From Acidimicrobiaceae bacterium (GTDB lineage: Bacteria > Actinomycetota > Acidimicrobiia > Acidimicrobiales > RAAP-2), in contig PMLJ01000043.1 in NCBI GenBank assembly GCA_003158855.1, forward strand, positions 62,001-126,000: DNA of 64,000 nt, written 5' to 3'. Under the pieces are notes generated by a model. The model was not told the DNA's origin. It made no database searches and was given only the letters and a program-made list of their open reading frames with translations. Both the position numbers and the translations under genes were made by a program. Below are positions 8,880 to 62,987 of the stretch, piece after piece; positions within the stretch are counted from its first letter, which is position 1, and each line of letters opens with the position of its first letter.

Positions 8880-9485
8880 ATGAATCAGCGGAACGAGAGG
8901 GGAAGCGTACCCGAGGTTCGCCATCTGCTGCTCAGCACGCAGTTGTTCTTCTTTGCGGTGATCGCGGTGTGCGTGTTGATCGACCACAGTGCCACGAGCG
9001 AAACCGACGGGATCTCCTTCTACGTGGTGTACCACCTCACCATTCCGCTCATGGTCCCGGGTTTCTGCGTCGGCGCGTACGGGATGTGGAGAACCTCGAC
9101 GCATTTCGCAGGCACTGACGCGCCGCAGCTCACGGTGGCGGGGCTTCGCGTTATCTCGATCGGGCTCCTTCTTTTGCTCGTCACACCATTCAACAAGGGA
9201 ACGTTTCTCAATTGGACCCACATGACCATCGGGGTCGTCGTGGCACTCGTCGAGTTCGCAATCTGCGCGCTCCTGCTCGTCCAGCACCGCGCGCCGGGCT
9301 CGGTCGTGGCGTTCTTCGTGACGCTCGCCGGTGGGATGCTCGCCGCCGCTTCGCTACCCGATTGGCACTTCGAGTATCTGCTCCAGGGCGAGATCATCTT
9401 CGAGCTTGGCTTCAGTTGGTGTCTGATCGAGTGGACGTATGCCCTGGGCGCCCAAAACCAGCGGGCGTTCGCTCAGGCGTGCTAG
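8880..9485 (+). CDS. Uncharacterised membrane protein, about six TM helices
   Basis: A 201-residue protein I do not recognise. After a short polar N-terminus there are hydrophobic segments at roughly residues 16-36, 46-65, 87-104, 112-134, 138-156 and 166-188, consistent with six membrane spans. No metal, nucleotide or redox motif is visible. The ATG at 8880 lies 6 nt after TAACTT with no ribosome site, so it is probably leaderless. It follows ppa by 22 nt but seems to have its own promoter. Coding looks real from codon bias and length; function unknown. Confidence 0.75.
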   Translation: MNQRNERGSVPEVRHLLLSTQLFFFAVIAVCVLIDHSATSETDGISFYVVYHLTIPLMVPGFCVGAYGMWRTSTHFAGTDAPQLTVAGLRVISIGLLLLLVTPFNKGTFLNWTHMTIGVVVALVEFAICALLLVQHRAPGSVVAFFVTLAGGMLAAASLPDWHFEYLLQGEIIFELGFSWCLIEWTYALGAQNQRAFAQAC

Positions 9486-20143: not shown

Positions 20144-20347
20144 ACCCCATTTTTAGTGCTCTGACCTCGAATGTCAACGCTCAGGGTGGTTATTGAGGAA
20201 CTTCCCGGCGGCGGGTGGCATCTCTCCAGCTCGACGAAGGGCGCAAACGGAGGAAAGGATGGTGAAGGGTTCGCCGATCGATATGACTTACTGCTCTATC
20301 AATTCAGCACGCTTTGGACCACTTTGTAAATGGGGGTTGGAGGCATT

Positions 20348-21610
20348 GTGCATCGGATTGTGATCCTCGGAGCCGGAACGGGCGGAACGCTCGCGGCGAA
20401 TCGCTTACGGAGGGTCTTTGGCTTTGACGAGGCGTCCATCACCTGCATCGACCAGAACGACCGGCACGTCTACCAGCCGGGGTTGCTCTTCGTGCCCTTC
20501 GGTCTGACGCACCCCGAGGACATCGTGAGGCCCCGTGGGCGACAACTGCATCGCGGAATCGAGTACGTGATGTCGGCGATTGAGAGTGTCGACCTGCAGG
20601 CCCAGACGGTGCATCTTGCCAACGGCGGCGACGTCGCCTATGACGTGCTCGTGGTCGCGACGGGCGCGGTGTTGGCGCCCGAGGAGACCGAGGGGCTTAC
20701 GGGCGCCGGATGGATGGAGAGGGTATTCACCTTCTACACCCCAGAGGGTGCGGCGGCGTTGGAAGCGGCGCTCGCCACGTTTGACGGCGGACGGGTTGTC
20801 GTGAACGTAGTTGAGATGCCGATCAAGTGTCCGGTCGCGCCACTGGAGTTCTGCTTCCTCGCGGACTGGTACTTCCGCGAGCGCGGAATCCGAGACAAGG
20901 TCACGCTGACCTACGTGACGCCTCTGGACGCAGCGTTCACCAAACCCATCGCCTCGAAGCACCTCGGCGGGATGCTCGAAGAGCGCGGCATCGATCTGGT
21001 CACCGAATTCAATACCGGAGAGGTCGACGGCGCCGGAGGTCGCTTGATCTCCTACGACGAACGCGAGATCGCTTTCGATCTTGCCGTGGTCATTGCGGCT
21101 CATAACGGCGCCGCCTACGTGGCACGGTCCGCGGGGCTGGGCGACGCGCTGGGTTTCGTCGCGACGAATGAGCACACCCTGCAGTCGCTCGTCGCCTCGA
21201 ACGTGTTCGTGCTGGGAGACGCTGCGTCACTTCCGATTTCGAAGGCCGGCTCGGTGACTCACTTCGAGGGCGAAGTGCTCGTCGAGAATGTCAAGCGATT
21301 CCTCAACGGCCAGTCGCTCGACGCTTCGTACGACGGTCACTCGAACTGCTTCATCGAGACCGGCTTCTCCAAGGCGATGCTCATTGACTTCAACTACGAG
21401 GTTGAGCCCCAGACGGGCCACTACCCCGGACCCGTGGGGCTGCCGCTCCTCAAAGAGTCGCGTCTCAACCACCTGGGCAAGTTGATGTTCCAGTGGCTTT
21501 ACTGGCACAGTCTGCTGCCGGGTCGTGATATTCCCGGAGTCACGAGCGCTATGCCCACGGCGGGCAAGCCCCGCTCCACTATCGAGAAGAAAGAGGAGGT
21601 TCCATCATGA
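20348..21610 (+). CDS. sqr: Sulfide:quinone oxidoreductase-like flavoprotein
   Basis: A 420-residue FAD disulfide oxidoreductase. The N-terminal dinucleotide motif is ILGAGTGGTLAANRL, followed by HVYQPGLLFVPFGL, which is characteristic of SQR. Cys161 (KCPVAPLE) and Cys334 (SNCFIETG) sit where the redox-active SQR cysteines are expected; Cys169 is a third candidate. The C-terminal region can associate with the membrane and pass electrons to quinone. An ATG at 20330 is in frame, but the GTG at 20348 has GGAGG just upstream and gives the expected N-terminus MHRIVILG. It overlaps the tusE start by 4 nt, so sulfide oxidation is coupled to sulfur carrier proteins. Confidence 0.85.
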   Translation: MHRIVILGAGTGGTLAANRLRRVFGFDEASITCIDQNDRHVYQPGLLFVPFGLTHPEDIVRPRGRQLHRGIEYVMSAIESVDLQAQTVHLANGGDVAYDVLVVATGAVLAPEETEGLTGAGWMERVFTFYTPEGAAALEAALATFDGGRVVVNVVEMPIKCPVAPLEFCFLADWYFRERGIRDKVTLTYVTPLDAAFTKPIASKHLGGMLEERGIDLVTEFNTGEVDGAGGRLISYDEREIAFDLAVVIAAHNGAAYVARSAGLGDALGFVATNEHTLQSLVASNVFVLGDAASLPISKAGSVTHFEGEVLVENVKRFLNGQSLDASYDGHSNCFIETGFSKAMLIDFNYEVEPQTGHYPGPVGLPLLKESRLNHLGKLMFQWLYWHSLLPGRDIPGVTSAMPTAGKPRSTIEKKEEVPS

Positions 21611-21924
21611 GCGTCGAAACGATTGCCGGGCGCGACATTCAACTCAACGAGGAGGGCTTCCTCACCGATCCGAGCCAATGGAACGAAGAGGTAGCGGTGG
21701 AACTGGCTCATCGCGAAGGGATCGACGCGCTGAGCGACCGTCACTGGGAGGTCATTCGATTCATGAGGTCGGAGTATGAGACCAAGGGATCGGGCCCGAG
21801 TGTTCGCATGCTCGGAAAGACCTCGGGCGTATCAATAAAGGAGCTCTACCAGCTGTTCCCCAAGGGGCCCGCCAAATTGGCGGCAAAGATCGCCGGTATT
21901 CCCAAGCCGCGTGGCTGCATCTAA
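21607..21924 (+). CDS. tusE: TusE/DsrC-family sulfur carrier protein
   Basis: A 105-residue protein matching the TusE/DsrC/DsvC fold end to end: EEGFLTDPSQWNEEVAVELA, then LSDRHWEVIRFMRSEY, LYQLFPKGPA and the C-terminal arm AGIPKPRGCI. The penultimate cysteine (Cys104), which carries persulfide in the family, is present. The second DsrC cysteine, eleven residues earlier, is alanine (Ala93), so it is TusE-type and not a full DsrC partner of dissimilatory sulfite reductase. ATGA overlap with sqr and a GAGGAGGTT ribosome site make it part of that operon. Confidence 0.9.
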   Translation: MSVETIAGRDIQLNEEGFLTDPSQWNEEVAVELAHREGIDALSDRHWEVIRFMRSEYETKGSGPSVRMLGKTSGVSIKELYQLFPKGPAKLAAKIAGIPKPRGCI

Positions 21925-21951
21925 CTGCGGCCTTATGAAAGGAGCATCGCC

Positions 21952-22419
21952 ATGGGCGACACCATTGAGAAGGTTTCAATCATTATCTCCAAGGGATCGT
22001 TGGAGGGCATCTACCCGGGGCTGATCATGGCCAACGGAGCGAGGGCCGAAGGCATCGAGGCGAACTTGTTCTTCACGTTCTTCGGTCTCGACGCGATTCA
22101 CGCGAAGAGGCTTAGCCACATCAAGGTCGCCGCCGTCGGGAATCCTGGCATGCACATGGCGAGCCTGATCGGCGTTCTTCCAGGAATGTCCGCCATCGCG
22201 ACGCGAATGATGGAGAAGAAGATGGAGGATTTCGACATTCCTGGGATTCCGGAGTTCATGGAGATGATCGCCGACACGGGTTGTGGGTTGTACGCGTGCA
22301 AGGCGTCGGTGGATCTCTTCGGATTCGCGAAGGAAGACTTCATTCCACAGGTTCACGACATCATCACCGTGGGCGAGTTCTACGGAATTGCCGCAGGCGG
22401 CGAGATCATCTTCACCTGA
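21952..22419 (+). CDS. DsrE2-type sulfurtransferase (DsrE/DsrF/DrsH-like)
   Basis: A 155-residue protein of the DsrE2 family: VSIIISKGSLEGIYPGLIMA opening, ANLFFTFFGLDAI, the methionine-rich central part MMEKKMEDF, and ADTGCGLYACKASVDLFG with Cys111 and Cys116 (Cys116 matches the conserved DsrE-type cysteine). These proteins move persulfide sulfur between enzymes. GAAAGGAG precedes the ATG. It is 27 nt downstream of tusE, completing an sqr-tusE-dsrE operon. A TusA or Hdr-like partner is not seen here. Confidence 0.88.
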   Translation: MGDTIEKVSIIISKGSLEGIYPGLIMANGARAEGIEANLFFTFFGLDAIHAKRLSHIKVAAVGNPGMHMASLIGVLPGMSAIATRMMEKKMEDFDIPGIPEFMEMIADTGCGLYACKASVDLFGFAKEDFIPQVHDIITVGEFYGIAAGGEIIFT

Positions 22420-55577: not shown

Positions 55578-55583
55578 TCCTTG

Positions 55584-55928
55584 GTGGACGAGATTCAATT
55601 TGACCAGCCGCTCTACGTGGCCAAGGCCGAACTCTTTCGATCCTTGGGACATCCGGCGCGAATAAGGATTCTTGAACTGCTCGTCTCGGGCGAGAAGCCG
55701 GTCAGCGTCTTGGTGGCGGAGGTCGGAATCGAACCCTCGTCACTGTCCCAGCATCTCAAAGTCCTGAAGCAGACCGGCCTCGTCGTGTCCAGCCGCCGAG
55801 GCAACGGCGTGACCTACCAAATTACCGACCCATCGGTATCGGAGTTCCTTGACGCCGCCCGCGCCGTTCTGGCTTCAACGCTCGGCCGTGCCCGCCAGAC
55901 CCTTGAGCACCTCGAAACTCCGAAATGA
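55584..55928 (+). CDS. ArsR-family transcriptional regulator (Rv0081-like)
   Basis: A 114-residue winged-helix regulator. LYVAKAELFRSLGHPARIRILELLV opens the domain, EPSSLSQHLKVLKQTGLV is the recognition helix, and RRGNGVTYQITD the wing. There is no ELCVCD-type metal site, so it is probably not a metal sensor. The N-terminus resembles the M. tuberculosis hypoxia-linked regulator Rv0081 as I recall it, and the downstream gene order is the same. GTG 55584 (not TTG 55581) fits the leaderless spacing. It overlaps the next gene by 4 nt. Confidence 0.9.
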   Translation: MDEIQFDQPLYVAKAELFRSLGHPARIRILELLVSGEKPVSVLVAEVGIEPSSLSQHLKVLKQTGLVVSSRRGNGVTYQITDPSVSEFLDAARAVLASTLGRARQTLEHLETPK

Positions 55929-56422
55929 AGCACGCCCGACACCCGTTCTCCAATTCTCCGTTCCGCTCGCTGATCAGCAAGCCAATCACGGATAGACCAG
56001 GAGCCCAGCCCGTAACCATCGAAGGCGTTCGTCTCCGTGGATCACTGCAACTGCGCCACGTCGACGTCGGCTCTTGCAACGGGTGCGAGGTCGAGATCAC
56101 CTCCGCGCTTGGTCCCAACTACGACGCGTCCCAGTTCGGGGCACGGCTGGTCGCCTCGCCTCGTCATGCCGACGGACTGTTGGTCACCGGCATCATCACG
56201 CGCAACATGGCGGGCCCGCTACGCCAAACACTGGCGGCGTTGCCCCGGCCGAGTGTGATTGTTGCGTGCGGCGACTGCGCGGTCAACGGCGGAATCTTCA
56301 ACGGCGCCTCCGGAGTCGCATCGACGCTCGACGAAGTAGTGACGCCGGACGTACGAATCCCTGGCTGTCCTCCCCACCCCACCGCGATCGTGCAGGCGCT
56401 TCGAAGCCTGACCGGACGATAG
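55925..56422 (+). CDS. NuoB-like [4Fe-4S] subunit of the Hyc/Ehr complex (Rv0082-like)
   Basis: A 165-residue protein. It is the small iron-sulfur subunit common to complex I and group 4 hydrogenases. Cluster ligands are visible: VGSCNGCEVEI (Cys51, Cys54), ACGDCAVNGG (Cys115 or Cys118) and PGCPPHP (Cys148), so the N2-type cluster site is intact. The ATG overlaps arsR by 4 nt. It should sit at the membrane junction and relay electrons to or from the NuoD-like subunit. The N-terminal 30 residues are a polar extension. Confidence 0.9.
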   Translation: MKHARHPFSNSPFRSLISKPITDRPGAQPVTIEGVRLRGSLQLRHVDVGSCNGCEVEITSALGPNYDASQFGARLVASPRHADGLLVTGIITRNMAGPLRQTLAALPRPSVIVACGDCAVNGGIFNGASGVASTLDEVVTPDVRIPGCPPHPTAIVQALRSLTGR

Positions 56423-56424
56423 CG

Positions 56425-58425
56425 ATGGCCTTGCTCCTTCTCGGTCTTGGCTGTTGTGTCCTGGCGGCGGCGGCGGCGAGCGCGCTACCCCGATCGTGGC
56501 GGGTGCCAGCGTCGGCGGGCCTGGGCGCGACTGGGTGCGCGCTCGCGTTCGTCGCGGCCATGCGGGTGCTCGTCACCGGCGGCGTTGAGTCGTTTTCTAC
56601 AACGCGGTTGCTCCCGATGTTCGGACTCACGCTTTCGATCGATCCGCTGGGCGCACTGTTCATCGTGGCGACCTCGTTCGTGGGCTTCGCGGCGTGCATC
56701 TACTGCATTGGCTACGCGCGTGGCGAGCTGCAATCGCGCACCGCCATGTCGCTCCTCATGGTCTTCATCCTCACGCTGCTCGCCGTTCCCGTGGCCTCGA
56801 GCATCGTCAGTCTGATGTTCTGCTGGGAGTTGATGGCGCTCAGTTCGATGCTGCTCATCCTCACCGACCAGCGCCACAGCCGCGCAGCGCGAAGCGCCGC
56901 GCTCTGGTACGGCGTCATGACCCAACTCGGGGCGGCGTCGATTCTCTTCGGACTGTTGCTCCTGACGGTTCACGGTGGCGGCCAGACGTTCGCCGACATC
57001 AGACTGCACTCGATGGCACTCTCGTCGGCGGTGCGATCATTCGCATTCTTCCTCGCCCTTCTGGGGTTCGCGTCGAAGGCGGGTGCGGTGCCATTGCACG
57101 TGTGGCTGCCGAAGGCTCATCCCGAGGCTCCGAGTCCCGTTTCGGCCTTGATGTCCAGCTCGATGGTGGCGATGGGTGTCTACGGCATCATCAGGGTCGG
57201 CGGCGACCTGTTGCACGGCGGCACCGTCTGGTGGTGGGTCGCGGTCGCGGCCTTTGGTGCCGTCTCGGCCCTCTACGGAGCGCTCCACGCCACGACGAGC
57301 ACCGATATCAAACGGCTGCTCGCGTACTCGACGATCGACATCCTGGGCCTCGTATTAATAGGTGTCGGCGCCGCCGGCGCGCTGTACGACACCGGACACC
57401 CGGGCGTCGCCCAGCTCGCGATGATGGCAGCGCTGCTGCTGGTCGTTGCCCACGCCGGCTTCAAGGGTGCTCTGTTCCTCGGTGCCGGATCGATTGAGCG
57501 CTCGACCGGGACCCGAGACCTCGATCAACTGGGCGGGCTGATCCATCGGATGCCCTTCACGGCGGCGCTGTTCGCGCTGTCGGCGTGTTCGATCATGGCC
57601 GTGCCGACCCTGAGCGGATTCTCCAGCGAATGGCTCCTGCTGCAGGGGCTGCTGCACGGATTCACGGATCGCAGCACGCCCACTCTCATCATGATGCTCG
57701 TGGGCGTGGTGGCGCTCGCCCTCACCGGCGGGCTCACCGCGGTGGCCTTTGTCAAGGCCTTCGGCATCGGCTTCCTGGGCCAGGCTCGTTCGCCCGGCGC
57801 AGCGAACGCCGTCGATGTCGCGCCGTCGATGAAGATCGCCATGGCGCTGCTCGTGATCCCGAGCATCGTGATCGGCGTCGTGCCGGGTCTCCTGCTCCCG
57901 CTCATCAATCGAGCGGCCACGACAGGACTCGCGACGGCGGCCCCGTCGCCCGTCGAGCGAGGGACCAGCTTGGTCCTGACCCAGTTTCGCGGCACCATCG
58001 AACCGGCCGCGCTGTTCGCCGGACTGGTGCTGGTGCTCTTGATCGTCTGGGCCGTCAACCAACGGCTCGCCCAGCGCAGCGCGCGACGCGTCGATGCGTG
58101 GAGTTGTGGACGCGACGTGCAGACGCCTCGCATGCAGTACACCGCGACTTCATTCGCCGAGCCCCTCCAAAGGGTCTTCGCCGACGTGTTGCGCCCCCAG
58201 TCCGACGTTGAAGTCACCCACGTCGCCGAATCGCAGTACTACGAGCAGTCGCTCATGTACCAGAACCGGGTGAGCGACGCATTGGAGCTGCACGGTTACC
58301 GCCCCGTCATCGACGCGGCCCTTCGAATCGGCAAGTCAGCGAGGCGAATCCAGAATGGCAGCATCCACCGCTACCTCGCATTCGGATTCGTGGCGCTGCT
58401 CTTGATACTGGTGGTGCTCGCATGA
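56425..58425 (+). CDS. NuoL/HycC-type proton-translocating membrane subunit (Rv0083-like)
   Basis: A 666-residue, about 16-helix antiporter-like subunit. GYARGELQ and the core helix MFCWELMALSSMLLIL carry the TM5 glutamate of the family. ASKAGAVPLHVWLPKAHPEAPSPVSALMSS has the Lys and proline motif, and LLVVAHAGFKGALFLGAGSI the second Lys/His channel segment. The C-terminal 100 residues are polar with WSCGRD, as in HyfB/HycC. The ATG at 56425 is 2 nt after the previous stop. It would pump protons or sodium. Confidence 0.93.
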   Translation: MALLLLGLGCCVLAAAAASALPRSWRVPASAGLGATGCALAFVAAMRVLVTGGVESFSTTRLLPMFGLTLSIDPLGALFIVATSFVGFAACIYCIGYARGELQSRTAMSLLMVFILTLLAVPVASSIVSLMFCWELMALSSMLLILTDQRHSRAARSAALWYGVMTQLGAASILFGLLLLTVHGGGQTFADIRLHSMALSSAVRSFAFFLALLGFASKAGAVPLHVWLPKAHPEAPSPVSALMSSSMVAMGVYGIIRVGGDLLHGGTVWWWVAVAAFGAVSALYGALHATTSTDIKRLLAYSTIDILGLVLIGVGAAGALYDTGHPGVAQLAMMAALLLVVAHAGFKGALFLGAGSIERSTGTRDLDQLGGLIHRMPFTAALFALSACSIMAVPTLSGFSSEWLLLQGLLHGFTDRSTPTLIMMLVGVVALALTGGLTAVAFVKAFGIGFLGQARSPGAANAVDVAPSMKIAMALLVIPSIVIGVVPGLLLPLINRAATTGLATAAPSPVERGTSLVLTQFRGTIEPAALFAGLVLVLLIVWAVNQRLAQRSARRVDAWSCGRDVQTPRMQYTATSFAEPLQRVFADVLRPQSDVEVTHVAESQYYEQSLMYQNRVSDALELHGYRPVIDAALRIGKSARRIQNGSIHRYLAFGFVALLLILVVLA

Positions 58426-59387
58426 TCGCGATCGTGCCTTCAGCCGCATACTCGACTCTCGCGACACTTGTGCAAATCGTGCTCGTGGTCCTGCTCGGGC
58501 CGCTGCTCATTGGCTTCATGGCCAAGGTCAGGGCCCGCGCCGAGGGTCGCGTCGGGGCACCGATAAACCAGCCCCTGCGGGACCTTCGAAAGCTGCTCTC
58601 CAAGGAACGACTCCACGCGCGTCACGCCAGCGTGGTCTTGCCCTTCGCTCCAATGGTGATTCTCGCCGCCACGTCCGTCGCCGTCGCCATATCGCCCCTG
58701 GTGACCACCCATCCGTTGCTCGGCTCGAGCGCCGACATCCTGGTGATCGTCTATCTCCTCCTGACGGGGTCGGTCGCCGCCGCGCTCGCGGGCCTCGACG
58801 CAGGCACGGCCTTTGGCGGCATGGGAGCGAGCCGGGCCATGACTATCGGGGCCCTCGCCGAACCAGCGCTGTTGGTGGCGGTGATCGCGCTCTCCATCCA
58901 ATCGGGAACTTCGAATCTGCCGTCAATGATCTCGACCACGCTCACTCACCCCAACTGGGTCTCGGGTCCTTCTCGGCTGTTGGCGTTGGTGGCGCTCGTG
59001 ATCGTGGTCATTGCCGAAACCGGGCGGCTTCCCGTCGACAATCCCTCCACCCACCTGGAGCTCACCATGATCCACGAGGCCATGATCCTGGAATACGCCG
59101 GACCGGAGTTGGCACTCGTGACCCTCGGCGCTTCGATGCGGCTCGGATTGCTGTTCTCTCTGATCGCCAATCTCTTCTTCCCGTGGGGCATCGCCACCAG
59201 CGGATCGATCCTTGGGCTGCTTCTCGGCGTCGCGGCACTGGTGGCGAAGACGGCGCTGGTGGCCTTCGGCGTGTCGCTTATCGAGATTCGCAGCGCCAAG
59301 CTGCGCTTGTTCCGGCTTCCCGAACTCCTCGCCGGAGGTTTCGTGCTCTCGGTGCTTGCCGTCATCACCGGGCTGGTGACGAGGTGA
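58422..59387 (+). CDS. hycD: NuoH/HycD-type membrane subunit (Rv0084-like)
   Basis: A 321-residue, eight-helix subunit that anchors the peripheral arm in the membrane. Signatures are RAEGRVGAPINQPLRDLRKLLSKE (the cytoplasmic GxGxP-QPxxDxxKL loop) and ETGRLPVDNPSTHLELTMIHEAMILEY (the acidic loop next to the quinone-like cavity in complex I). ATGA overlap with the preceding gene. Ion translocation and coupling to the redox arm are expected from homologues. Confidence 0.93.
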   Translation: MIAIVPSAAYSTLATLVQIVLVVLLGPLLIGFMAKVRARAEGRVGAPINQPLRDLRKLLSKERLHARHASVVLPFAPMVILAATSVAVAISPLVTTHPLLGSSADILVIVYLLLTGSVAAALAGLDAGTAFGGMGASRAMTIGALAEPALLVAVIALSIQSGTSNLPSMISTTLTHPNWVSGPSRLLALVALVIVVIAETGRLPVDNPSTHLELTMIHEAMILEYAGPELALVTLGASMRLGLLFSLIANLFFPWGIATSGSILGLLLGVAALVAKTALVAFGVSLIEIRSAKLRLFRLPELLAGGFVLSVLAVITGLVTR

Positions 59388-60040
59388 GCACTACCTACGT
59401 CGGGGCCTTGGAACTGGCGTCGGGAGCCGTGCTCGTCTCGGCGATCATGACGCTTTGGCGCCGCCAGGTGCGCTCGATCGTCACCATGCTGAGCCTGCAG
59501 GGCATCGCCCTCGCTGGCGTCGCGGTGGTCCTCGCGACGCACGAGCATGATAAGGCGCTGCTGGCGACGGGACTCCTGGTCCTCGTGGTGAAGGGCTTCG
59601 TGGTGCCAGGCCTCCTGCGGCGGGTCTCGCAGCTCGATCCGAATTCGCGCGAATCGGCGCCGCTCGTCAACGTGCCGGCGTCCTTAGTGTTTGCCGCGGT
59701 CCTCATCGTCCTTTCCTACGTCGTCAGTTCGCGGGTGACCTCGTTTGCGCCGACGGTCGCGACCCACTTGACACCCATCGGTATCGCGACCGTGCTCGTC
59801 GGCTACTTCATGCTCGTCACCCGCCGGCGTGCGGTCTCGAAGATCGTCGGGCTGATCCTCGTCGACAACGGCATCGCCCTTGTCACCTTTCTCCTGACGT
59901 CGGGGGTACCGCTCATCGTGGAGCTCGGTTCGTCACTCGACGTGCTGCTCGTGGTGGTGGTGCTGCAGTTCCTCGTCGTCAACATGGGGCGGCACTTACG
60001 GACCAATGAGCTCGCCGAGATGAAAGCGCTCCACGACTGA
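59384..60040 (+). CDS. hycP: HyfE-like membrane subunit (Rv0085/HycP-like)
   Basis: A 218-residue, six- to seven-helix protein. It matches hydrogenase-4 component E: an N-terminal MTLWRRQVRSIVTMLSLQGIALA helix pair like NuoK, then GLLVLVVKGFVVPGLLRRV and a central GYFMLVTRRRAVSKIVGLILVDNGIALVTFLL repeat of the NuoK-type fold. GTG at 59384 overlaps the hycD stop; the long open frame upstream lies inside hycD and is not coding. It is a NuoK-type channel subunit. Confidence 0.9.
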   Translation: MSTTYVGALELASGAVLVSAIMTLWRRQVRSIVTMLSLQGIALAGVAVVLATHEHDKALLATGLLVLVVKGFVVPGLLRRVSQLDPNSRESAPLVNVPASLVFAAVLIVLSYVVSSRVTSFAPTVATHLTPIGIATVLVGYFMLVTRRRAVSKIVGLILVDNGIALVTFLLTSGVPLIVELGSSLDVLLVVVVLQFLVVNMGRHLRTNELAEMKALHD

Positions 60041-61506
60041 TGCTCTGCGTTCTCGTTCTCCTCATCCCGTTGCTCACGACCGTGCTGTCGGCCTCCTTCG
60101 CGTGGCGAGCCTGGGTGGGCTGGACCACGGCCGCATCAAGCGCGTCGATCCTGGGTCTCGGCATCGCGCTCAGTGTGCGGGCGACCTCGCACGCTCCGCT
60201 CATGGCGCTGCACGGGGCGCTGCGCGCTGACGCATTGAGCTCGTTCATGGTCGTCGTGATCGGGACCGTCTCGTTGCTCGCGACGCTGTTCACGCCGCGC
60301 ACGATGCGCCAGGAAATCGAGTCCGGCGTCACGACCGTGCGTTTCGCGCGTCGCTACGTGGTCCTGATGCAGGTCTTCATCACCTGCATGCTGATGGCGG
60401 TACTCACGGCGAACCTCGGGGTGCTGTGGGTGTCGATCGAAGCGACCACGATTGCCACCACCTTCCTCGTCAGTCATCGCCGGACCGACGGGGCGTACGA
60501 GGCGTCCTGGAAGTACGTGATCCTCTGCTCGATCGGCATCGCCCTCGCGTTCCTCGGTACCGTGCTGGTCTATTTCGCCGAACTTCACGTCGGTAGCCTC
60601 CATCAGAGCGCGTCGCTCGACTGGACGTCGGTCATGGCCATCGCCCATCACCTCAATCCCAGCGTGATGCGCCTCGCCTTCGCGCTCCTGGTCCTCGGGT
60701 ACGGCACGAAAGTGGGGCTCGTCCCGATGCACAGTTGGCTGCCCGACGCGCACAGTCAGGCGCCAGCACCGGTCTCGGCGTTGATGTCGGGGGTGTTGTT
60801 GACGGTCGCCTTCTACGCGTTGCTGCGGTTCAAGGCAATCGCCGACGCCGCCCTCGGGACGGCATTTCCCCGGACCCTGCTCATCGTCGTGGGTATCGCC
60901 TCGCTCGTGCTCGCCTCGGGGATGCTCATCGCTCAGCGCGACTTGAAGCGGATGTTGGCGTACTCGAGCATTGAGCATATGGGCCTCTTGGCCCTCGGCG
61001 CGGCGGCGGGTACGCCGCTCGCGATCGCCGCGGTGCTGCTGCACATCCTCGGTCACGGGATCACCAAGTCGGTGCTCTTCCTCTCGTCAGGCGAGATTTA
61101 CCACGTCGAGGGCACCACCGAGATAGCGAAGATCTCGGGGATGCTGGCCCGCCGTCCGGTGCTCGGGGGAGTCTTTGGCTTCGGTCTGATGGCCCTCGTG
61201 GGGTTTCCACCCTTCAGCCTCTTCGTGAGCGAGCTCTCCATGGCGCGCGCCGAGGTCGATGTCGGTCTGTGGTGGGTGGTCGCGATCTCCCTGGCGTGCC
61301 TCGGCGCCATCTTCGGGGCGATTGCCATGCACGCCCGTCAGTTGCTCATGGGAGTGGGCCCGTCACCGTCTGAGGGGCCCACGGCAACCGCTCGATCCGT
61401 CGCGGTTCCGCTCGTCACCGCGCTGGTCATCTGCGCGGTGATTGGCGTCGTCGCGTGGCCCCTCCAGTCACTGCTCCACAGCGCCGCGCACGTGGTGGTC
61501 CCATGA
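60040..61506 (+). CDS. hycQ: NuoN/HyfF-type membrane subunit (Rv0086/HycQ-like)
   Basis: A 488-residue, 14-helix antiporter-like subunit. The key elements are LGVLWVSIEATTIATTFLVSHR (TM5 Glu), YGTKVGLVPMHSWLPDAHSQAPAPVSALMSG (Lys, HxxLPDAHxxAPxP) and LLHILGHGITKSVLFLSSGEI (second Lys). It starts at 60040, sharing one base with the previous stop. Together with Rv0083-like it gives two antiporter-like subunits per complex, the minimal proton-pumping arm. Confidence 0.93.
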   Translation: MLCVLVLLIPLLTTVLSASFAWRAWVGWTTAASSASILGLGIALSVRATSHAPLMALHGALRADALSSFMVVVIGTVSLLATLFTPRTMRQEIESGVTTVRFARRYVVLMQVFITCMLMAVLTANLGVLWVSIEATTIATTFLVSHRRTDGAYEASWKYVILCSIGIALAFLGTVLVYFAELHVGSLHQSASLDWTSVMAIAHHLNPSVMRLAFALLVLGYGTKVGLVPMHSWLPDAHSQAPAPVSALMSGVLLTVAFYALLRFKAIADAALGTAFPRTLLIVVGIASLVLASGMLIAQRDLKRMLAYSSIEHMGLLALGAAAGTPLAIAAVLLHILGHGITKSVLFLSSGEIYHVEGTTEIAKISGMLARRPVLGGVFGFGLMALVGFPPFSLFVSELSMARAEVDVGLWWVVAISLACLGAIFGAIAMHARQLLMGVGPSPSEGPTATARSVAVPLVTALVICAVIGVVAWPLQSLLHSAAHVVVP

Positions 61507-62987
61507 CCGTAGGCATGCGCACGACGACCGACATCGGTGCCGACGAGCTCCACGATCTTGCGGCATCGCTCTTCGACACCGGTCACCGCTTGGCGGCGGT
61601 CGTGGGTCACGACGACGGGGAGTTCCTGCGCGTGGTGTACGTCTTCACGAGCGGACCGCCGGACCTGCGTCGCGAGCTCGTCGTGCGACTCGGCGCCGAG
61701 AGTGCGGTCGTGCCAACCTTGAGCGACCTTTCCTTCAGCGCGAGTCGCTTCGAGCGCGAACTGCACGACAACTTCGGAATCATCCCGCTGGGTCACCCGT
61801 TCCTTCGTCCCCTCGTTCGCCACCAGCACTGGCCCGAGCACTGGTATCCGCTTCGCAACAACGCTGGCACCATGCCCGCGGAGCGGGTTGACGCAGCACC
61901 GTATCCCTTCATTGAGGTGCAGGGTTCTGGCGTCTACGAGATACCCGTCGGCCCGGTGCACGCGGGACTCATCGAGCCCGGACACTTCCGGTTCTCGGTC
62001 GTGGGCGAGACGATCCTGAAGATGACCGCTCGGCTTTGGTACGTGCACCGCGGCATCGAGCGCATGTTCCAAGGGGCCGACATCGACCGGGGACTCGAGA
62101 TCGCCGAGCGGATCTCGGGCGATACGGCGGTGGGCCATACGCTCGCGTACTGCATGGCGGTGGAAGAGGCGCTGGGGCTGGAAGTCTCCGACGAGGCGTG
62201 GGCGCTTCGCTCGATGCTGCTCGAACTCGAGCGGATGTACAACCACGTTGGCGACGTGGGCGCCCTCTGCAACGACGTCAGTTTCGGAGTCGCCAATGCC
62301 CGGGCGCTGTCGATTCGCGAGCAGCTCCTTCGGCTCAATGACGAAGTCACGGGTCATCGACTGCTCCGAGGTTCGATTCGAGTCGGCGCCACCAGCGTTC
62401 GAACCCTTCCGACGGGCTCGGAACTCGCGCAGGTCGGCGAAGCGTTCGATGCGCTCGTGGCGTTGGCCCGGTCGAACACCGTGGTCGTGGACCGATTCGA
62501 AGGCACCGCCGTGCTCGCCGCCGCTGACGCCGCCGCCATCGGCACCGTCGGCGTCGTGGGTCGCGCATCAGGACTCGCAATCGACGCTCGAGCGTCGCAC
62601 CCCTTCTACGAAACAAGCCGGGGATTCGTCCCAGCGGTCCAGAGCGGTGGCGACGTCATGGCCCGCTTCGACCAACGTGTGGACGAGTTCCACGCTTCGC
62701 TCGAAATTGTGCGCCGGTTGAACGACCTGGCGACCGGACTAAGCGCCGGCAGTGCGTCGTCCGTTGACGCGCCCCGTTCGGGCCTCGGCATCGCGGAGGG
62801 TTGGCGAGGCACCATTGTTCATCGCGTTGAACTCGACGCCAGCGGCAGGATTTCGCGGGCCCGGACAGTCGATCCTTCGTTCCTGAATTGGCCCGCCCTG
62901 TCGGTTGCTCTTAGCGACACCATTGTGCCGGACTTCCCTCTGGCGAACAAGAGCTTCAACCTCTCCTACGCGGGCAACGACCTCTGA
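61503..62987 (+). CDS. hycE: NuoC-NuoD/HycE-like large subunit lacking all [NiFe] ligands (Rv0087-like)
   Basis: A 494-residue fusion. Residues 1-120 are NuoC-like (ELHDNFGIIPLGHP); residues 130-494 are NuoD-like (VYEIPVGPVHAGLIEPGHFRF, RGIERMFQG). In hydrogenases the N-terminal motif is RxCGxC; here it is RISGDT (Ser205, Thr208). The C-terminal DPCxxC is DPSFLN (Ser459, Asn462). All four nickel ligands are therefore absent. The end PDFPLANKSFNLSYAGNDL is as in mycobacterial HycE. It belongs to Ehr complexes, whose substrate is unknown. ATG 61503 overlaps hycQ by 4 nt. Confidence 0.92.
   Translation: MTVGMRTTTDIGADELHDLAASLFDTGHRLAAVVGHDDGEFLRVVYVFTSGPPDLRRELVVRLGAESAVVPTLSDLSFSASRFERELHDNFGIIPLGHPFLRPLVRHQHWPEHWYPLRNNAGTMPAERVDAAPYPFIEVQGSGVYEIPVGPVHAGLIEPGHFRFSVVGETILKMTARLWYVHRGIERMFQGADIDRGLEIAERISGDTAVGHTLAYCMAVEEALGLEVSDEAWALRSMLLELERMYNHVGDVGALCNDVSFGVANARALSIREQLLRLNDEVTGHRLLRGSIRVGATSVRTLPTGSELAQVGEAFDALVALARSNTVVVDRFEGTAVLAAADAAAIGTVGVVGRASGLAIDARASHPFYETSRGFVPAVQSGGDVMARFDQRVDEFHASLEIVRRLNDLATGLSAGSASSVDAPRSGLGIAEGWRGTIVHRVELDASGRISRARTVDPSFLNWPALSVALSDTIVPDFPLANKSFNLSYAGNDL

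Follow-up and report, generated by a model that had tools for sequence, protein, structure and literature searches.

The locus described here, from a soil actinobacterium, lies in a window of 64 kb (positions 62001-126000 of contig C25 in a 2.7-Mb genome, G000, that is 96% complete), and it consists of three genes on the forward strand, which the preliminary description had already placed at their correct positions. The first gene, sqr (20348..21610, +), encodes a flavoprotein of the NCBIfam family "type III SQR, selenoprotein subtype", as judged from profile scores, solved relatives, an alignment, a tree and a predicted structure. A GGAGG ribosome-binding sequence (20339..20343, +) precedes its GTG start at 20348, from which the protein begins with MHRIVILG and matches its relatives. 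An alternative in-frame ATG at 20330 is possible and would reach beyond the N-termini of the relatives; the cysteines of SQR are numbered from this ATG. The second gene (21607..21924, +) encodes a carrier of the TusE/DsrC/DsvC family with 105 amino acids, identified by profile and alignment, in which Cys104 is the single C-terminal cysteine and Ala93 replaces the second cysteine of DsrC. The sequence at the junction of these two genes reads ATGA (21607..21610, +), a stop-start overlap that agrees with the translational coupling claimed earlier, and we infer the coupling itself from this overlap. The third gene (21952..22419, +) starts 27 nt past the stop codon of the dsrC-type gene, behind an AAAGGAG ribosome-binding sequence (21938..21944, +). 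By profile and alignment, it encodes a DsrE-type sulfurtransferase (PF13686) of 155 amino acids with a conserved Cys116, and its nearest solved relative is 2QS7, the Sulfolobus DsrE2B. The neighbouring genes, which we read as a cyclopropane-fatty-acid-synthase-like gene on the opposite strand and a stomatin-like gene, are unrelated, and no further sulfur markers were found in the 64-kb window besides a weak ArsR match. Scans of the trio for promoters and terminators stayed at the level of shuffled sequences. At 55581-62987 of the window, we read an ArsR-like gene followed by apparent membrane subunits of an NADH-dehydrogenase- or hydrogenase-like complex.

The flavoprotein had been described as carrying SQR cysteines, and our comparisons bear this out. 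First, it scored 558.1 bits against NF049943, above the cut-off of 525. Second, a phmmer search against solved proteins gave 137 bits for SQR, at most 78 for FCC and 50 for NDH-2, and the best solved relatives were human SQR (1e-38), followed by A. ferrooxidans SQR, FCC and NDH-2. Third, when the predicted model (pLDDT 78, poor beyond residue 358) was compared with known structures, the Z scores were 42 for SQR, 36.5 for FCC and 34-33 for NDH-2. Finally, Cys167 and Cys340 both align with cysteines of human SQR; Cys167 is present in 91 of 91 aligned rows and Cys340 in 90 of 91, the remaining row having a gap. The two conserved cysteines of SQR are catalytic. A phylogeny grouping the flavoprotein with NDH-2 or FCC-like proteins had been named as the result that would speak against SQR; in a tree of 35 rows, which contains no FCC and whose NDH-2 labels are our own recognition, the SQRs of the trio form a group distinct from the NDH-2-like rows and also from the other SQR that this genome encodes, with several weak forks and with the long or doubtful rows L030, L015 and L016 included. 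We thus rejected NDH-2 and FCC on profile scores, solved relatives and model comparison, and NDH-2 also by the tree, and the protein is an SQR by family, with predicted sulfide:quinone activity. The closest named record is an Acidimicrobiaceae MAG (record titled palsa_657, 96% identity in SQR). A table of PMC13188914 lists the NF049943 type III SQR with the motif HxxU. Selenocysteine was rejected for the window SQR, which reads HSNC with a Cys codon where HxxU is expected; selB gave no match over the cut-off in this genome.

The two small proteins are recognised at the level of the family and fall short of the more specific names that had been proposed. The designation as a TusE-type carrier holds for TIGR03342 (104.2 bits, cut-off 53.5) and fails for the TusE equivalog NF008562 (88.8 bits, cut-off 191). 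Likewise, the protein called DsrE2 is recognised by PF13686 (118 bits, cut-off 25) and not by the DsrE2 equivalog NF047629 (99.7 bits, cut-off 210). Among solved structures it is closest to 2QS7, called DsrE2B in PMC4175335. The residues singled out earlier, Cys104 of the carrier and Cys116 of the DsrE-type protein, are indeed the conserved cysteines. In alignments of 91 SQR, 90 DsrC and 87 DsrE rows, which combine the window with two collections of relatives sharing some duplicated loci, Cys104 (90 rows) and Cys116 (87 rows) are invariant wherever a row covers them. All 90 DsrC rows have Ala at position 93, and Cys111 of DsrE is poorly kept (Cys in 23 of 87). A dissimilatory DsrC would have a second C-terminal cysteine and dsrAB in its genome; here the residue is Ala93, and dsrA gave no match in the window's genome.

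The preliminary description considered it unusual that the trio stands alone, which did not hold up: the trio is a recurrent cassette across Actinomycetota. Relatives were collected with SQR as the sole query; of 310 candidates the best 80 were kept, so these loci are the closest relatives. A DsrC-type gene stands next to SQR in all 80 and a DsrE-type gene is also present in 78. One of the two exceptions, L080, lies where the contig ends. The other, L076, looks real, as an SQR-DsrC pair with no DsrE found by tblastn in the 3.7 kb left downstream of 9621. According to their record titles, the 80 loci come from Acidimicrobiia and other actinobacterial MAGs, Lentzea, Amycolatopsis, Actinomadura, Thermoleophilia and one member of Dormiibacterota, and 28 of them have an ATGA-type overlap. 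Altogether 110 loci, 106 of them distinct, were assigned to the window type (A-type) or to a distant B-type. The order SQR-DsrC-DsrE was found in 89 of 93 A-type loci as called, all on the same strand and with a few duplicates included. In the C-terminal tails of B-type DsrC, Ala or Ser stands instead of the second Cys, and 8 of 17 B-type loci have a DUF1641 gene separating SQR from DsrC. Within the window's own genus set, 10 of 25 genomes carry the trio-type SQR, and NF049943 is over its cut-off in 32 of 396 Actinomycetota genomes.

We then compared DsrC-family genes with and without dsrA across the phylum. Of the 396 genomes, 48 exceeded the PF04358 cut-off; 19 of these 48 also exceeded that of dsrA, whereas no trio genome (27 in number) did so. 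Among the 29 dsrA-negative genomes, 28 have DsrC no more than 2 kb from SQR, and in the twenty-ninth a C-terminal SQR fragment stands beside intact DsrC and DsrE genes; among the matches listed, this proximity was found in none of the 19 dsrA-positive genomes. The SQRs of two of the 27 trio genomes (G173 and G280) are split and score below the cut-off. On inspection, each of the 19 two-Cys loci (L142-L160) had the second DsrC cysteine, and none of the 11 one-Cys loci (L161-L171) did. Genome G074 is mixed, having a two-Cys DsrC and a selenocysteine SQR on the opposite strand, with no dsrA and no adjoining DsrE, and it is counted among the 28 genomes above. In Actinomycetota, one-Cys DsrC goes with SQR and two-Cys DsrC goes with dsrA, with the exception of G074. 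A missing second DsrC cysteine where DsrAB is absent is already recorded in PMC3397948. TusA gave no match in the window's genome, nor in 8 of the 27 trio genomes. At locus L187 (G385, about 8919-9479), only the C-terminal part of SQR is present, and intact DsrC and DsrE genes lie downstream of it.

Based on these observations, we lean towards reading the trio as a sulfide-oxidising sulfur-relay cassette, in which sulfur would pass in the cytoplasm from SQR to DsrE and then to DsrC, with the sulfane sulfur kept protein-bound. The catalytic and transfer steps, their order and the end user are what we infer from gene order, protein families, conservation and genome context. SQR, using FAD and Cys167/Cys340, would oxidise H2S, reduce the quinone pool by two electrons and keep the sulfur as a cysteine persulfide rather than release polysulfide or load a small thiol. 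Cys116 of the DsrE-type protein would then take over the sulfane sulfur and give it on to Cys104 of the one-Cys DsrC, whose C-terminal arm would deliver it to a cytoplasmic user. With no DsrAB in the genome and no second cysteine in DsrC, this carrier would act as a shuttle only, apart from the sulfite reductase usually served by carriers of this kind. The most likely user here would be a candidate rhodanese-persulfide dioxygenase or a CoA-disulfide-reductase-like rhodanese protein, and the outcome would be sulfide and persulfide handling together with electrons for respiration. In A. vinosum, as reported in the sulfur-transfer experiments of PMC3397948, the DsrE persulfide moves one way to the penultimate DsrC cysteine without need of the second cysteine, and DsrEFH and DsrC accept no sulfur from thiosulfate or GSSH, which argues for a protein donor. 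On these grounds, SQR to DsrE to DsrC seems the likeliest order by analogy, with a direct transfer from SQR to DsrC as the alternative. The position of the conserved cysteines, exactly at the predicted transfer sites, would fit such a relay, and it is further favoured by the failure to find TusA, a usual donor, in the genomes named above.

The surroundings of the trio in relatives also speak for a relay, with CstR-like, dioxygenase, CoA-disulfide-reductase-like, DUF302 and thioredoxin genes recurring beside it. CsoR/CstR-family genes are near 24 of 106 distinct loci, and their density falls with distance from the trio, from 34/Mb within 2 kb to 26, 6 and 0/Mb in the following 2-kb bins. Dioxygenase-rhodanese, CoA-disulfide-reductase-like and DUF302 genes are near 8 loci each and thioredoxin near 9; three quarters of the loci are without such neighbours, partly due to many short contigs. 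The CsoR-family proteins at these loci have two cysteines and, in the rows with a clean reading of this region (L041 is garbled, L106 partial), no His four residues before the second Cys. The absence of this His in the CsoR family indicates persulfide rather than copper sensing. Since these proteins are under every NCBIfam cut-off (best RicR, a copper family, 54 bits against 175), we use the label CstR-like as an interpretation. The CoA-disulfide-reductase relatives scored 449.8 and 423.5 bits against a cut-off of 578.8. A TACCC-N4-GGGTA palindrome, which we take to be the CstR motif, occurs at several CsoR-bearing loci, and upstream of SQR in L041, L050 and L092; the full consensus was upstream of SQR in 3 of 15 readable relatives (17 tried). 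The operator pattern gave 55 sites in 19 genomes against 32 for a reversed control, 5 against 0 in the window's genome and 8 against 8 in G029, and of 11 trio genomes, 3 have it roughly 2 kb or less from the trio. We regard it as weak evidence overall. An operator of this kind for the trio of the window was rejected, with 9 matches at 3 mismatches against 8.1 expected.

These neighbours would also suit sulfide detoxification, in which SQR makes mycothiol or CoA persulfide, DsrE and DsrC bind or clear it, and a dioxygenase or reductase finishes the process in a cst/yrk-like manner. The B. licheniformis yrk-sqr-pdo and Staphylococcus cst systems, as outlined in PMC9918477, pair SQR with DsrE, TusA and rhodanese proteins, and CstR-like, dioxygenase-rhodanese and CoA-disulfide-reductase-like genes accompany the trio in relatives. 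The hallmarks of such a cluster, a CstR operator at sqr and a dioxygenase beside it, are present near the trio in some relatives and were not found at the trio of the window. Instead, contig C8 (84001-102000) of the same genome carries two CstR-like genes, a CoA-disulfide-reductase-like rhodanese protein, cytochrome bd subunit I, thioredoxin and a second SQR, which is nearest to A. aeolicus SQR (6e-37), type I-like and unrelated to the trio SQR. Four of the five palindromes of the genome are on this locus, at the other SQR and not at the trio. The inducible sulfide response of the species is thus probably on C8, and the trio is probably a second, separately placed SQR module, which makes simple detoxification a weaker, and a distinct relay role a stronger, reading of the trio in the window. 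In addition, DsrC and DsrEFH of A. vinosum were unreactive with small persulfides in the assays of PMC3397948, and we consider detoxification rather unlikely. A 366-aa rhodanese-metallo-hydrolase fusion on contig C42 is a candidate persulfide dioxygenase-rhodanese, an assignment that rests on its nearest solved relatives (a lactamase-rhodanese protein and the persulfide dioxygenase-rhodanese BpPRF), as it passes no NCBIfam cut-off. The earlier proposal of a relay outside the full Dsr pathway is plausible in a genome with no dsrA or TusA match. Its further claim that oxidation is not fully dissimilatory agrees with the failure to find dsrA, and is qualified by the C42 fusion, found in the suggested dioxygenase search: with this candidate, the CoA-disulfide-reductase-like protein, the CstR-like genes and the second SQR elsewhere in the genome, oxidation beyond persulfide is possible.

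Several points stand against the protein-bound relay. The trio of the window has neither a CstR-type operator nor an adjoining sulfur gene, four of five operators being at the other SQR, and the relative L076 has no DsrE gene. The Metallosphaera counterpart of DsrE2B took no sulfur from the donors tested (PMC4175335), and for the type III SQR of cable bacteria a periplasmic orientation is assumed (PMC13293266), which would prevent direct hand-over to the carriers. The trio might instead be an input arm of dissimilatory oxidation, with DsrC persulfide feeding an Hdr-like complex. In the B-type locus L182 (G225), DUF1641 and two ArsR-like genes accompany the trio, and downstream of it lie tusA and iron-sulfur/flavin proteins that we read as HdrA- and HdrC-like; however, among the trio loci, to which this examination was confined, this is the one B-type locus of 17 with such markers, and none of the 93 A-type loci has them, making this role improbable. 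Supply of sulfur for tRNA 2-thiouridine, from SQR through a TusD-like DsrE and TusE to MnmA, which had also been suggested, is very improbable: DsrE and DsrC are homologous to TusD and TusE and the single-Cys C-terminus is as in TusE, but the patchy distribution (48 of 396 genomes, 10 of 25 in the genus) is unlike an essential tRNA step, DsrC is always beside SQR when dsrA is absent (once beside an SQR fragment), and the TusE equivalog score is not reached.

A sister clade offers a parallel to the relay cassette. A TGA stands exactly at the Cys340 position (DGHATU) in 7 of 30 phylum loci fetched, all of family f44 and all without the trio, and selB is over its cut-off in six of these seven genomes. 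When f44 loci L172-L177 were fetched wider, SQR adjoined TusA in 4 of 6, with apparent aprA and qmo genes by our reading and, close by, a DsrE-type gene of PF02635. SQR therefore keeps sulfur carriers as neighbours in both settings, but different ones, DsrC/DsrE in one and TusA plus a DsrEF-type protein in the other. TGA codons in L007 and L011 were rejected as selenocysteine sites on closer reading of the loci.

To our knowledge, the physiological acceptor of SQR sulfur is unsettled in most bacteria. We tentatively suggest, at somewhat less than even confidence, a DsrAB-independent DsrC pathway in which the DsrE-type protein and one-Cys DsrC are the physiological acceptor of this SQR clade, so that many soil Actinomycetota would never release free persulfide, and the carrier would have been swapped in evolution (DsrC/DsrE; TusA plus DsrEF-type with selenocysteine SQR; TusA in haloarchaea). 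As the unit is compact and conserved and occurs without DsrAB and, in several genomes, without TusA, three small recombinant proteins would suffice to test for a direct protein acceptor. If true, DsrC-family carriers would be used outside sulfite reductase and tRNA thiolation. Matches to dsrC or dsrE in metagenomes of soil Actinomycetota also call for caution in inferring dissimilatory sulfur metabolism.

Among known systems, the M. cuprina TusA-SQR-DsrE4 genes, as presented in PMC4175335, resemble the trio in that SQR, a carrier and a DsrE-type gene adjoin, but their carrier is TusA, whereas the window has a one-Cys DsrC in the order SQR-DsrC-DsrE and belongs to Actinomycetota. The S. aureus cst and B. 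licheniformis yrk-nre-sqr-pdo systems, following PMC9918477, likewise join SQR, a DsrE-type protein, a carrier, CstR and persulfide dioxygenase for sulfide; they have TusA and rhodanese in place of DsrC in one regulon, while the trio of the window lies apart from CstR and dioxygenase. The A. vinosum rDsr system TusA-DsrEFH-DsrC-DsrAB, in the account of PMC3397948, has the DsrE to DsrC persulfide transfer proposed for the trio; in the window's genome, however, dsrA and TusA were not found, the single DsrE-type protein belongs to another Pfam family, and DsrC is without the second Cys. Compared with the NF049943 selenoprotein SQRs, the window SQR is over the cut-off but has Cys at the Sec position, and the TGA form was seen in the seven loci without the trio. 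In haloarchaeal tusA-SQR-like-DUF1641 plasmid clusters, a relative of SQR (36-38% identity) adjoins a carrier gene as in the trio, the carrier being TusA and not DsrC, and DsrE/DsrF/DrsH-like, DUF302 and thioredoxin genes are near in one of two records viewed. The titles and abstract openings of the open-access literature searched contained no sqr-dsrC-dsrE unit in Actinomycetota. What sets the trio apart from the known SQR-plus-carrier modules is the one-Cys DsrC as a dedicated partner of SQR in Actinomycetota.
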